From Ignavibacteria bacterium (GTDB lineage: Bacteria; Bacteroidota; Ignavibacteria; Kapaibacteriales; Kapaibacteriaceae), in assembly GCA_013204605.1 (NCBI GenBank), contig JABMNI010000071.1, positions 1 through 64,000 of the forward strand: 64,000 bases of DNA, given 5' to 3'. The position numbers were made by a program, and so were the translations under genes. Every line of letters begins with the position of its first letter. Position 1 is the first letter of the stretch. Below the pieces are notes generated by a model. The model worked only from the letters and a program-made list of their open reading frames with translations. It did no database searches and was not told the origin of the DNA. Shown here piece by piece: positions 4,782 to 9,616 of the stretch.

Positions 4782-5333
4782 ATGAATATCGAATTGCCGG
4801 ACTGGTGCTCGACTGTAAAATTGAACGTTAAACTGGATTCGGACAATGATGCCATGCAGTTTGCATTGGATTTAGTGGAGAAAAATATTGAGAATAAAAC
4901 GGGAGGTCCGTTTGCCGCAGTGATTGTAGATAGTCAAACACGCCTGCCAATTTCGTTTGGTGTAAACATTGTGGAGCATACAAACTGTTCGGTTTTCCAT
5001 GCAGAAATTGTGTCGATTATTCGTGCATCTTACGCTACCAAAACTTTTGATTTGGGTAGAACCCGTCCCGTCACGTTATACACCACCGCCGAGCCATGTG
5101 CAATGTGCATGGGTGCAATTCCGTGGGCAGGGATAGGGTGTGTAGTGACCGGCGCTACTGATAGTGACGTACGCGAGGTTGGATTTGACGAGGGGGCCAA
5201 ACCCGCTGATTGGCTAGAAAGTTATTATGCCAGAGGCATAGTTGTAAGAACACAGGTGCTACGACGTAAAGCCATAGCGTTACTACAGAGATACGTAAGC
5301 GAAGGCGGCAATAGGTATAATGGGAATCCCTAA
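4782..5333 (+). CDS. Cytidine/deoxycytidylate-deaminase family protein (nucleoside deaminase)
   Basis: Zinc-dependent deaminase of the CDA superfamily. The zinc/catalytic motifs are HAE (residues 73-75) and PCAMC (105-109), with GGPFAAVIVD before them. The Glu of HAE is the proton shuttle. At 183 aa, with an extra C-terminal helix (WLESYYARGIVVRTQVLRR), it resembles guanine-deaminase-like nucleoside deaminases more than the shorter TadA. The substrate remains uncertain. It is divergent from dtd across 83 bp and convergent with the broken peptidase gene. Confidence 0.85.
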   Translation: MNIELPDWCSTVKLNVKLDSDNDAMQFALDLVEKNIENKTGGPFAAVIVDSQTRLPISFGVNIVEHTNCSVFHAEIVSIIRASYATKTFDLGRTRPVTLYTTAEPCAMCMGAIPWAGIGCVVTGATDSDVREVGFDEGAKPADWLESYYARGIVVRTQVLRRKAIALLQRYVSEGGNRYNGNP

Positions 5334-5370
5334 AATACGATGCGACGTTAAACTACAATGACTTGTTGAA

Positions 5371-5622
5371 TCAAAATGACTCTGTTTTAACTGTGCATAG
5401 AACTGAACGAAGATCATTAAATAACAAGTCGTCCGGCTCGGAATCATAGAGTGGTAATTCCACGGTCAATTCTTTTCCCGTCATCATTAATCGAACTCTG
5501 GTTACGCGGTTGTTATCTAACGTAACTTTTACAGGTACTAGCATTTTAAAAGATTCCGGCACTTCCGATTGTTTTACACGCATTAAAACCTTCCACTTGC
5601 CATCTACCTGTTTCTCCTTTTT
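5371..5622 (-). pseudogene. C-terminal remnant of the M1-type peptidase, cut off by an in-frame TAG
   Basis: The frame of the upstream peptidase continues without a shift for 83 more codons after its TAG stop at 5623-5625: thirteen codons (KKEKQVDGKWKVL), then the 70-aa ORF of the track (MRVKQSEVPESF...). The composition and pattern (alternating hydrophobic strands, SEVPESFKMLVPVKV, ELPLYDSEPDDLLFNDLRSVL) look like the beta-sandwich that closes many Bacteroidota M1 peptidases. It is therefore more likely the detached tail of the same protein than an independent small gene. TAG is one transition from TGG (Trp). A sequencing error is a simple alternative. Confidence 0.8.
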
Positions 5623-7638
5623 CTACGCCACCGTGTACGTTGGAATTTCATTTCCATAAACCCATTGATCAAAGAACCATCGTAGGTCAACGCCGGTTAG
5701 CTTTTCAATTGTCAGTCGAAAATCGTTTGTAGTTGCACGCTTTCCTTTGAAGTCGGTGTAGAATGTTGACATCGAAGTCATAAATGGGGTTTCGCCCATC
5801 GTGTTCAGATCCAACATCATATTTCGTAACATGTGTAAAACCCAAGCACCCTTGAAGTACACAAACGTATTGTAACCACCATCCCTAGATCCCTCGTTAA
5901 CCCTGCGTCCGATCGCGATAGCTGGAGGAGGCAAGTTTTTGCCAATAGTCCTCTTGCCAAAGTCCCGGATTTCGGTACTGTACTCATCAAGTAATCTGAA
6001 AAATTTTGCACCGTCTTTAGCGGCAAGTTGCGAGTACAGTAAACAGGAATACTCAGCAAATCCCTCGCTCAACCACTGGTCGCGATAATTTGCAAAATCA
6101 ACGGCTACGCCCCACCACTGGTGGGCCGCCTCGTGCGAAGTAAATTGTTCGCCAAAAAAGTCATCGTACTTGGCATCTTCGTCTTTGAAAAATGCTGCCG
6201 ATGACAAATGTAGTAATCCGGGGAAGGCCTCGCCATGTGATCCAGGAAGTTCAGTTGCGTTCAAATGAGTGACGGGAAGTGGTCCATAGAGTTTGGCGAA
6301 AAACTCCAAACTCTGCACAACGTCCGTTGTAACTACATCGGCCTGATCCTTTGTAAGGTAGAGCATGGTTGCAGTTGGCGATTGACTCCCCGTTTTTAGC
6401 TTTCGCTCCTTAAACAAACCAATGTGGAACGACGCGTTTCTTAAAGCTACACCGGAAACCCACCTGCTTGACTTGTACAAATCCGTTTCAGGAAGCTCGG
6501 TTTGTTTGCCAATCGACACCAATGTCATACTCTCGGGATACGTAAACGTCATGTCAAAAAATGACTTATGCCCCCAATCGTGAGCGGCGTACCAAGTGAT
6601 TGAAGAATTCAGTACTGTGTAATCTTTAAAACGTTTGATCACGTCGCCGTGATATGAAATGTCGATGCTTATTTTTTGACCCTTAAGCATTGTTCTGGGC
6701 AGTTTTATCCAAGTGCTCCACCCATCTTTTGCCCGAAAATATTCAAGTTTAGTTGTACCGTACTCTCGCATGGAATCGATCTTCATTCTAGAATCCAAAT
6801 TGAGGGTCAACCAAACAAGTGAATCAGATAAGATCGACATATCAATTCTATCTCTACACCACATCACTAACGACCTGTCGATCGTACTTGAAATTGTGTG
6901 CTGATGAGTTTCCACCACGTCGATTGCAGACACACCGTCGTCTCGAACTACCATTGCCTCAGTTGTGGCAGGACAAGAACTGACATTCGTAAACGGCACC
7001 GTTGTGCCAGGAGCATTTTCAACACTCAAACGATATGAGTCTTCAGATAATGGATCGTGTATGAGATAAATTCTCTTTTTGTTTACATCAACCGCGCTGC
7101 AGTACAGCAACGGCAAATCAGCCCCGGTCAGAATGACGTGTGAAAATGTTGTATCTACCTCTTGACCTTCATTCTCTAACAGAAATTCACGTAACTCTCC
7201 ACCTAGTTTAGAGAAGTCGTGTTCAGGAATTAATGATATCGGATTCTCTTCAACTACTTCGGTGAATGAGTTATCGCCAAAGACAAAAAGGATTTTTCTA
7301 ACGTCGTTCTGATACACATTGGAGGAATAAAATCTTTGCATGTTTGTCTTCTCGGTCTGGATGTTCGGACTAAATGAAACTGAAGCCTTTCCCAAGAATA
7401 CTGCACCATATCTTTTACCGTTTATTGGCGTGTAATAGACTATCTCGCCCTTTTCAAGCACAATGGTCATTAGGTGGTCTTCAATAATCAAACCTTCCAC
7501 CGCTCTGACAGACTTTGTGTCGATACTGGTGCTTTTCACGGCCTTAACTAGGAAATCGTATTCGGTAGAATCGGCAGCGAAACAAACATTGAATGCGGTT
7601 GCTGCAAGTGCCAAACAAAAAAGTAGACGAATAACCAT
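5623..7638 (-). CDS. Secreted M1-family (gluzincin) metallopeptidase, apparently truncated at the C-terminus
   Basis: A zinc aminopeptidase-like enzyme. The zinc site is complete: HEAAH at residues 502-506 and the third ligand Glu in WLSEGFAEY at 525, the classic HEXXH-18-E spacing. I chose the ATG at 7638, codon 41 of the ORF-track entry, because it starts a clear signal peptide (MVIRLLFCLALAATAFNVCFA); the 40 residues before it look unlike an exported N-terminus. It is probably periplasmic or secreted. The visible protein is 671 aa and stops at TAG right after 'GNEIPTYTVA'; the frame then continues for 83 more codons that look like the usual C-terminal domain. Whether the truncated enzyme is active is unknown. 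It is divergent from thyX. Confidence 0.85.
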   Translation of the reverse strand: MVIRLLFCLALAATAFNVCFAADSTEYDFLVKAVKSTSIDTKSVRAVEGLIIEDHLMTIVLEKGEIVYYTPINGKRYGAVFLGKASVSFSPNIQTEKTNMQRFYSSNVYQNDVRKILFVFGDNSFTEVVEENPISLIPEHDFSKLGGELREFLLENEGQEVDTTFSHVILTGADLPLLYCSAVDVNKKRIYLIHDPLSEDSYRLSVENAPGTTVPFTNVSSCPATTEAMVVRDDGVSAIDVVETHQHTISSTIDRSLVMWCRDRIDMSILSDSLVWLTLNLDSRMKIDSMREYGTTKLEYFRAKDGWSTWIKLPRTMLKGQKISIDISYHGDVIKRFKDYTVLNSSITWYAAHDWGHKSFFDMTFTYPESMTLVSIGKQTELPETDLYKSSRWVSGVALRNASFHIGLFKERKLKTGSQSPTATMLYLTKDQADVVTTDVVQSLEFFAKLYGPLPVTHLNATELPGSHGEAFPGLLHLSSAAFFKDEDAKYDDFFGEQFTSHEAAHQWWGVAVDFANYRDQWLSEGFAEYSCLLYSQLAAKDGAKFFRLLDEYSTEIRDFGKRTIGKNLPPPAIAIGRRVNEGSRDGGYNTFVYFKGAWVLHMLRNMMLDLNTMGETPFMTSMSTFYTDFKGKRATTNDFRLTIEKLTGVDLRWFFDQWVYGNEIPTYTVA

Positions 7639-7737
7639 AATGTACCCCAATTTGTATCGTGCAAAATAGTAAAGGAGTTGGATGGTTAAAACTTTTTCAA
7701 CACTCCATATCTTTGTAGCCAAACCAATAGGAGATGT

Positions 7738-8586
7738 ATGTCGGACGAAATAAGCCAATTGCTCGGAAAAGAATTCAAATGCCTAGACAAAGGATTTGTG
7801 CGACTTGTGGATGTAATGGGTGACGATCACGCAATTGTGCAGGCAGCCAGGGTCAGCTATGGTTCGGGAACGAAAAAAGTTCATGAGGATAGGGGGCTTA
7901 TCCGGTATTTGCTTCGACACCTCCACACCACTCCCTTCGAAATGGTTGAATTTAAATTCCATGTTAAGCTTCCAATCTTTGTAGCTCGACAGTGGATCAG
8001 GCATCGTACAGCAAACGTGAATGAGTACAGTGGCCGATATAGCGAAATGAAGGACGAGTTTTACGTTCCGGATATTAGCCAAATCCGCGTGCAAAGCACA
8101 AGTAATAAACAAGGTCGAGCCGAACAAGCATTCCCCCCAGATGAGGCAGTAGCAATCGGCAAAATGATGGAGAATTCGCAATCGGCATCGTACGCTGAAT
8201 ATCAGCAGTTGCTTGAAAAAGATCTTGCTCGCGAAATCGCTCGTATTAACCTTCCTGTTTCGAATTATACAGAGTGGTACTGGAAAATAGATTTACACAA
8301 CCTCTTCCACTTTTTAAAGCTGCGTATCGATCCTCATGCTCAATACGAAATTCAAGTTTATGCACACGCCATGGGCGAGATTGCACGTGCAGTTGTGCCA
8401 CATGCATACGAAGCGTTTGAGGATTACATACTGCACTCTACAAAATTTTCACGGTTAGAGCTCAAAGCATTATCATCGATGTTACATAAGGTTGAATTGA
8501 CCGAAGAGTATTTGTCGCAATTTGGGTTAAAGGGTAGAGAAGCTCGAGAATTTATTGATAAGTACGATCTAAAGATCAAGGACTGA
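7738..8586 (+). CDS. thyX: Flavin-dependent thymidylate synthase
   Basis: Makes dTMP from dUMP using FAD, NADPH and methylene-tetrahydrofolate. The ThyX signature RHRTANVNEYSGRYS (RHR-x7-S type) is present near residue 90, along with the C-terminal substrate-binding helices (LHNLFHFLKLRIDPHAQYEIQVYA). The length of 282 aa is within the family range. A good GGAGAT site precedes the ATG. The next gene starts 1 bp after the TGA. No thyA is seen in the window. Confidence 0.96.
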   Translation: MSDEISQLLGKEFKCLDKGFVRLVDVMGDDHAIVQAARVSYGSGTKKVHEDRGLIRYLLRHLHTTPFEMVEFKFHVKLPIFVARQWIRHRTANVNEYSGRYSEMKDEFYVPDISQIRVQSTSNKQGRAEQAFPPDEAVAIGKMMENSQSASYAEYQQLLEKDLAREIARINLPVSNYTEWYWKIDLHNLFHFLKLRIDPHAQYEIQVYAHAMGEIARAVVPHAYEAFEDYILHSTKFSRLELKALSSMLHKVELTEEYLSQFGLKGREAREFIDKYDLKIKD

Positions 8587-8587
8587 A

Positions 8588-9616
8588 GTGTTAAAGGGCT
8601 ACATCATTGCCGGCTTAATATTGATTTCAATCTTGGGTTGCACAAACCCCATGGAGGAGCCCAAAGCCCCCTTCCCAGAAATTCCGGCGCATTTACCGCC
8701 TATGCCTTTTCCGGTTGACAACCCAATAACGCCTGAAAAAGTTGAGTTGGGACGGCACCTTTTTTATGAGAAACGATTGTCGGTAAATGGAACCATTGCC
8801 TGTGCATCATGTCACGCGCAGGAGAACGCATTTACTGATTCACCTAAGCAAGTGAGTTCCGGAGTGAATGGTTCCCAGGGACAACGAAACGCCCCAACTG
8901 TTGTGAATGCTGGGTACCGTAAAGAAATGTTTTGGGACGGGCGCGCCGGTTCACTTGAAGATCAAGCCATGGCTGCGTTCTTGAATTCGACCGAAATGGC
9001 TGCCGATACTTTCGAAGTTCATAAACTATTAGCATCGGCAGAATATCGAGTGATGTGGAAACGGGCTTTCCCAGACATGATAGTAACCATGCACCGAGCT
9101 ATGCAAGCAATAGGTTCATTTGAACGAACCATTGTTTCCGGAAACAGTAGATACGACCAGTATTTAAGTGGTCAGTTCAACGCATTAAGCGAGCAAGAAC
9201 GTAATGGGATGCAGTTGTTTTTTAGCAACAAAGCGATGTGCGGTGCTTGTCATGGTGGGCCGGATTTAACAGACGACCTGTTTCACAGTGTTGGTTTGTT
9301 TCATCATTACTTCGACCGGGGTAGGTATGAAGTGACGAGAAATCCAGGAGATGAAGGAAGATTTAAAACTCCAACGTTGCGAAACGTTGCCCTAACAGCT
9401 CCGTACATGGCCACAGGAGATAATGAGAAGCAGTTGTTGTTGGATTTGGAGTCGGTGGTGGAACACTACGATGAAGGTGGAACACCTTTTTCAAACAAGG
9501 ACAAACGAGTTAAGAAACTCAACCTAACGAAAGAGGAAAAAGCTTCGCTTGTGGCCTTCATGAAAACGCTAACGGACAGCTCGTTGATATTGAATCCAAA
9601 ATTCGGACCTCCATAG
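8588..9616 (+). CDS. Di-haem cytochrome c peroxidase (MauG/CcpA family) lipoprotein
   Basis: Two c-type haem sites are visible, CASCH (72-76) and CGACH (218-222), spaced as in bacterial di-haem peroxidases that reduce H2O2 in the periplasm. Conserved family segments include 'LGRHLFYEKRLSVNGTIACASCH', 'FWDGRAGSLEDQA' and 'FKTPTLRNVALTAPYMATG'. The N-terminus is a lipoprotein signal with lipobox ILGC (Cys18), so it should be membrane-anchored. It starts at GTG one base after the thyX stop, suggesting translational coupling. It ends at TAG. The electron donor and true substrate are not evident. Confidence 0.9.
   Translation: MLKGYIIAGLILISILGCTNPMEEPKAPFPEIPAHLPPMPFPVDNPITPEKVELGRHLFYEKRLSVNGTIACASCHAQENAFTDSPKQVSSGVNGSQGQRNAPTVVNAGYRKEMFWDGRAGSLEDQAMAAFLNSTEMAADTFEVHKLLASAEYRVMWKRAFPDMIVTMHRAMQAIGSFERTIVSGNSRYDQYLSGQFNALSEQERNGMQLFFSNKAMCGACHGGPDLTDDLFHSVGLFHHYFDRGRYEVTRNPGDEGRFKTPTLRNVALTAPYMATGDNEKQLLLDLESVVEHYDEGGTPFSNKDKRVKKLNLTKEEKASLVAFMKTLTDSSLILNPKFGPP

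Follow-up and report, generated by a model that had tools for sequence, protein, structure and literature searches.

A probable recent nonsense mutation in an apparently dispensable secreted M1-type peptidase gene of an Ignavibacteria bacterium

Within the 64,000-nucleotide stretch of Ignavibacteria bacterium DNA analysed here (the window), the frame of a secreted M1-type metallopeptidase is interrupted by a single TAG and then stays open. The question raised by this locus is whether the codon marks a gene that has recently been broken, a stop that is read through in a programmed manner or an error in the determined sequence, the three causes offered in a preliminary description of this DNA. 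The evidence set out below makes the first of these the probable one, and it is favoured by the apparent dispensability of the gene in its bacterial family.

Results

The interrupted frame and its predicted product

Minus-strand translation of positions 5300–7650 runs from the initiator methionine (7638) to PTYTVA, meets a stop, resumes in the same frame with KKEKQVDGKWKVLMRVKQSEVPESFK and ends with VKTESF and a second stop. This reproduces the TAG at 5623–5625 after PTYTVA and the 83 same-frame open codons behind it that had been described, and the thirteen bridging codons read as they were first written. The joined frame of 755 codons (5374..7638, minus strand) starts with the ATG at 7638, matches Pfam PF01433 (E 7e-17), contains one internal TAG and begins with a signal-peptide-like N-terminus, MVIRLLFCLALAATAFNVCFA. 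The internal TAG is codon 672 (5623..5625, minus strand), which is Trp in family orthologues. Upstream of it the zinc site is intact, with HEAAH (502–506) followed by E525 in an HEXXH-18-E arrangement (minus strand, approximately 6060..6144). The 83 codons 3' of the TAG (5374..5622, minus strand) correspond to the C-terminal beta-sandwich domain, would be untranslated if the TAG is obeyed, and are closed by a natural TAA stop (5371..5373, minus strand) at the position where the orthologues end. A separately called 70-residue open reading frame at 5371–5583 lies inside the peptidase frame, as proposed, and is the distal portion of this open tail.

By simple arithmetic, 83 stop-free codons have a chance of ∼1% of arising at 45% G+C. 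Any doubt that the tail is coding is removed by its homology to the tails of the family orthologues, with which it is 47–60% identical and shares its last position. Its codon usage score is 0.092, compared with a mean of 0.092 over 44 window genes. The M1 frame is the only gene-sized open reading frame in the window with a long extension of normal, coding-like codon usage, and a survey of the window revealed no internal-stop extension in other genes. No second lesion was found in the 755 codons.

The front of the protein scores 62.2 bits against Pfam Peptidase_M1 (PF01433; cut-off 27.7), and the tail alone gives no significant Pfam match. H502, E503, H506 and E525, which constitute the HEXXH motif and the Glu 18 residues further on, are invariant in the alignment of relatives. 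For searches of the joined frame the TAG was read as Trp, for comparison only. When the joined frame was modelled (pLDDT 82.9, pTM 0.83), the best PDB matches of the structure were M1 aminopeptidases (E 1e-31), in keeping with an M1 fold. The modelled tail is a confident domain (84–94) whose seven strands span residues 667–752, which bears out the earlier view of it as the closing beta-sandwich of an M1 peptidase, and the first of these strands (667–676) has codon 672 at its middle. According to this model, obeying the TAG would remove nearly the whole beta-sandwich and leave a torn strand behind.

Locus and orthologues

The M1 gene is flanked by a convergent gene for a TadA-like deaminase (4782..5333, plus strand) and a divergent thyX gene (7738..8586, plus strand), both conserved neighbours, and next to thyX lies a gene for an MbnH/MauG-like dihaem peroxidase (8588–9616). 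The full order deaminase–M1–thyX–dihaem peroxidase recurs in the family genomes G002, G003, G021 and G022, and thyX and the peroxidase gene also flank the M1 gene in G013 and G019. This synteny is common to relatives and the M1 gene of the window is therefore a true orthologue in the position it held ancestrally. Elsewhere in this genome, M1 genes are only 25–29% identical to it, over parts of their length; there is thus no spare recent copy, and the idea that a recent duplicate had freed the window copy was rejected on the same grounds. The deaminase, conserved beside the M1 gene, scores 44.3 against 150 bits, far under the TadA equivalog cut-off, and the dihaem peroxidase, likewise conserved as a neighbour across the family, scores 262.6 bits against TIGR04039, below the cut-off of 362.85. 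A tandem arrangement of M1 genes occurs in one relative (L092/L108, G008:C95:5900-9165), in which a divergent, shorter M1-like gene directly precedes the orthologue.

An orthologue is present in 14 of the 22 other genomes of the family, a count that includes two contig-end fragments and one frameshifted gene. Codon 672 is Trp in every one of these 14 genomes, and all of them run on past it, nearly all of them with a common end point to within six codons. The alignment that the preliminary description had proposed as a check thus places Trp at the position of the TAG, as expected if the stop arose from TGG by a single change. Homologues ending at the TAG and a separate start for the tail in relatives, either of which would have spoken against that origin, were both looked for: no orthologue ends there (0/14 in the family, and none among those checked in the order or beyond), and the tail is not separately initiated in any relative. 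Beyond the family, in the order and more widely, the site of codon 672 is mostly aromatic, with Tyr most often.

The nearest orthologues are 45–48% identical over their full length, a distance at which synonymous sites are expected to be saturated. Among the bacterial genomes searched, Ignavibacteria assemblies are the nearest named relatives, with 45% identity across residues 1–755; partial matches of the joined frame reach 62%. Order-wide, the C-terminal third finds a match at E 1e-20 in 34 of 123 genomes. Compared at the columns that are invariant in the other eleven full-length orthologues, the window's protein has changed at 4 of 36 N-terminal columns, at 1 of 69 catalytic ones and at none of the 16 in the tail, figures that lie inside, or only just outside, the spread seen among intact orthologues. 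Constraint is unrelaxed in the tail and in the rest of the protein, which fits a very young mutation and would also fit an error or occasional useful read-through.

Loss and breakage of the gene in relatives

The orthologue is absent from 8 of the 22 other family genomes, one of which (G004) is a single contig rated 100% complete. In at least six family genomes the gene is missing beside conserved neighbours: thyX adjoins dtd in G004, G007, G020 and G018, and the deaminase gene in G014 and G017, and in neither arrangement is there an intervening M1 match at E 0.001. Elsewhere the gene has been relocated away from the thyX locus (G015) or is frameshifted (G010), in the latter case with an intact counterpart, 92–96% identical, in G019. 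A further genome (G005) carries an intact M1 gene plus a decayed extra copy with a frameshift and two TAGs. Judged from these genome comparisons, the M1 gene is dispensable in the family.

The decayed copy in G005 (L106, G005:C11:64485-65560) has lost a conserved Trp and a conserved Pro and is 87% identical to the intact gene L097 of another species; a past duplication or transfer may have left it behind. Its two TAGs were rejected as a recurrence of the window's mutation since they are at other positions, the copy is frameshifted and degraded, and codon 672 is Trp there.

The meaning of TAG in this genome

TAG terminates 13 of the 44 window genes of at least 150 residues, the M1 gene itself counted, and release factor 1 (RF1) is intact, scoring 484.8 bits against an NCBIfam cut-off of 423.25 with its GGQ motif present. 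The statement in the preliminary description that TAG is a normal stop here therefore stands. A change of the code at TAG was rejected because RF1 is present, its own gene ends on TAG and TAG is an ordinary stop. The RF1 gene, prfA (L143, G000:C29:31658-32719), has a second in-frame stop four codons after its TAG (RALQ and stop), and one TAG that was flagged inside the RF1 match proved to be at the very end of the match, four codons before that next stop.

No CUA anticodon was found among the 30 tRNA matches of the genome (27 by ARAGORN and three read by eye, Thr TGT, Thr GGT and Trp CCA), a set in which some amino acids, such as Ala, Gly, Ile and Asp, are not represented. When a CUA anticodon arm combined with a T-arm was searched for as a pattern, 16 matches were obtained against 11 in a reversed control, and just one of the 16 coincided with a known tRNA, tRNA-Arg(TCT). 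The same search with a CCA anticodon recovers tRNA-Trp, which indicates that the pattern search works. On the strength of the 30 tRNA matches and the pattern search a suppressor tRNA was rejected, and so was read-through driven by RNA structure, since the fold across and after the TAG (5500–5640) is no better than that of shuffled sequences (z −1.15).

Discussion

We consider it probable that this dispensable gene for a secreted peptidase has recently acquired a Trp-to-amber nonsense mutation and that pseudogenisation is in progress. A point mutation would have turned the conserved Trp codon into an amber stop, so that translation would end after residue 671. What remained would be a signal peptide, the N-terminal part, the zinc-binding catalytic domain and half of strand one of the beta-sandwich, a product that would probably be misfolded or impaired, with the gene at the beginning of its decay. 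Termination at the TAG, the impairment of the product and the recent date of the mutation are all three inferred, and the TAG is known from one assembled genome, the sole representative of its species and genus in the comparison. Two properties of nonsense pseudogenes are evident, an in-frame stop at a site that is a sense codon in relatives (Trp in 14 of 14) and tolerated loss of the gene (eight of 22 genomes without it, with neighbours in place in six). A third, relaxed constraint or further lesions, is not, the invariant residues being kept. The absence of further decay is expected if the mutation is very young; hence we refer to a pseudogene in the making.

Were the TAG a sequencing, assembly or strain-mixing error, the true codon would be TGG and the gene whole. 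The TAG is indeed the sole lesion in an otherwise well-conserved gene and the genome is a fragmented, metagenome-type draft of 86 contigs. However, single substitution errors are rare in a consensus sequence and this gene is one of a set repeatedly lost or broken in the family, and we regard an error as unlikely. It is still less likely that the TAG yields a shorter, active enzyme without the third domain, like M1dr of Deinococcus radiodurans, which the titles of references 83 and 84 in PMC10343166 describe as a two-domain M1 peptidase without the C-terminal domain. The TAG is inside a strand (667–676) rather than in a linker, no family or order orthologue ends at its position, and the abandoned tail is without decay. 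Such an enzyme would nevertheless retain the intact zinc site, and the best PDB sequence match is 6a8z (474 residues), whose residue 465 aligns with query residue 667, so that the match ends about where the truncated product would.

Read-through, in which some ribosomes would pass the TAG, incorporate an amino acid there and complete the peptidase, would account for the intact tail with all 16 of its invariant residues, and in-frame stops in otherwise constrained bacterial genes are reported to be frequent (Belinky et al. 2021, PMC7918605). The same authors accept in-frame stops that are shared by two or more species, and by that criterion the present stop, conserved in no relative, does not qualify. 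With no CUA tRNA among the 30 matches or by pattern search, a normal RF1 and no significant structure across or after the stop, programmed read-through, one of the causes proposed at the outset, has found no support and seems highly improbable. The same small chance attaches to amber read-through at a useful level by an unrecognised context or tRNA, with the peptidase made mainly in a two-domain form and to a lesser extent at full length. Production of the tail as a separate small protein from the internal ATG (5583) can be virtually dismissed. This ATG is 39 bases behind the TAG and has GGAAGG a few bases upstream, but the same residues are within one long frame in all orthologues, a small protein begun there would have no signal peptide, and relatives have no separate start.

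A nonsense mutation in the M1 gene would make it another pseudogene at an early stage, in a draft genome, and of little significance by itself. The case is of modest use as a warning for annotation, two open reading frame calls here belonging to a single gene, and it illustrates the repeated loss of a secreted peptidase within a bacterial family. What the locus resembles is an ordinary dispensable gene that broke recently, not a new mode of reading DNA.

Compared with known systems, the window's protein has the HEXXH-18-E zinc site in common with the three-domain bacterial secreted M1 metallopeptidases (PF01433); the C-terminal beta-sandwich is complete in unbroken relatives, whereas the frame of the window copy breaks off within its first strand. 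Deinococcus radiodurans M1dr (PDB 6a8z) terminates roughly where the truncated window product would. It is naturally a two-domain enzyme, however, while the window gene still encodes the third domain, which is present in every orthologue. The read-through cases of PMC7918605 resemble the window's gene in having an internal stop in a frame conserved on both sides, but they are shared by at least two species and the window's TAG is in one genome only. The closest likeness is to bacterial nonsense pseudogenes of single-copy, dispensable genes, in which one in-frame stop replaces a sense codon of the relatives and the gene is repeatedly lost or broken in the family, both as seen here; the only difference is that the window's gene would be a very young example, without a further lesion.
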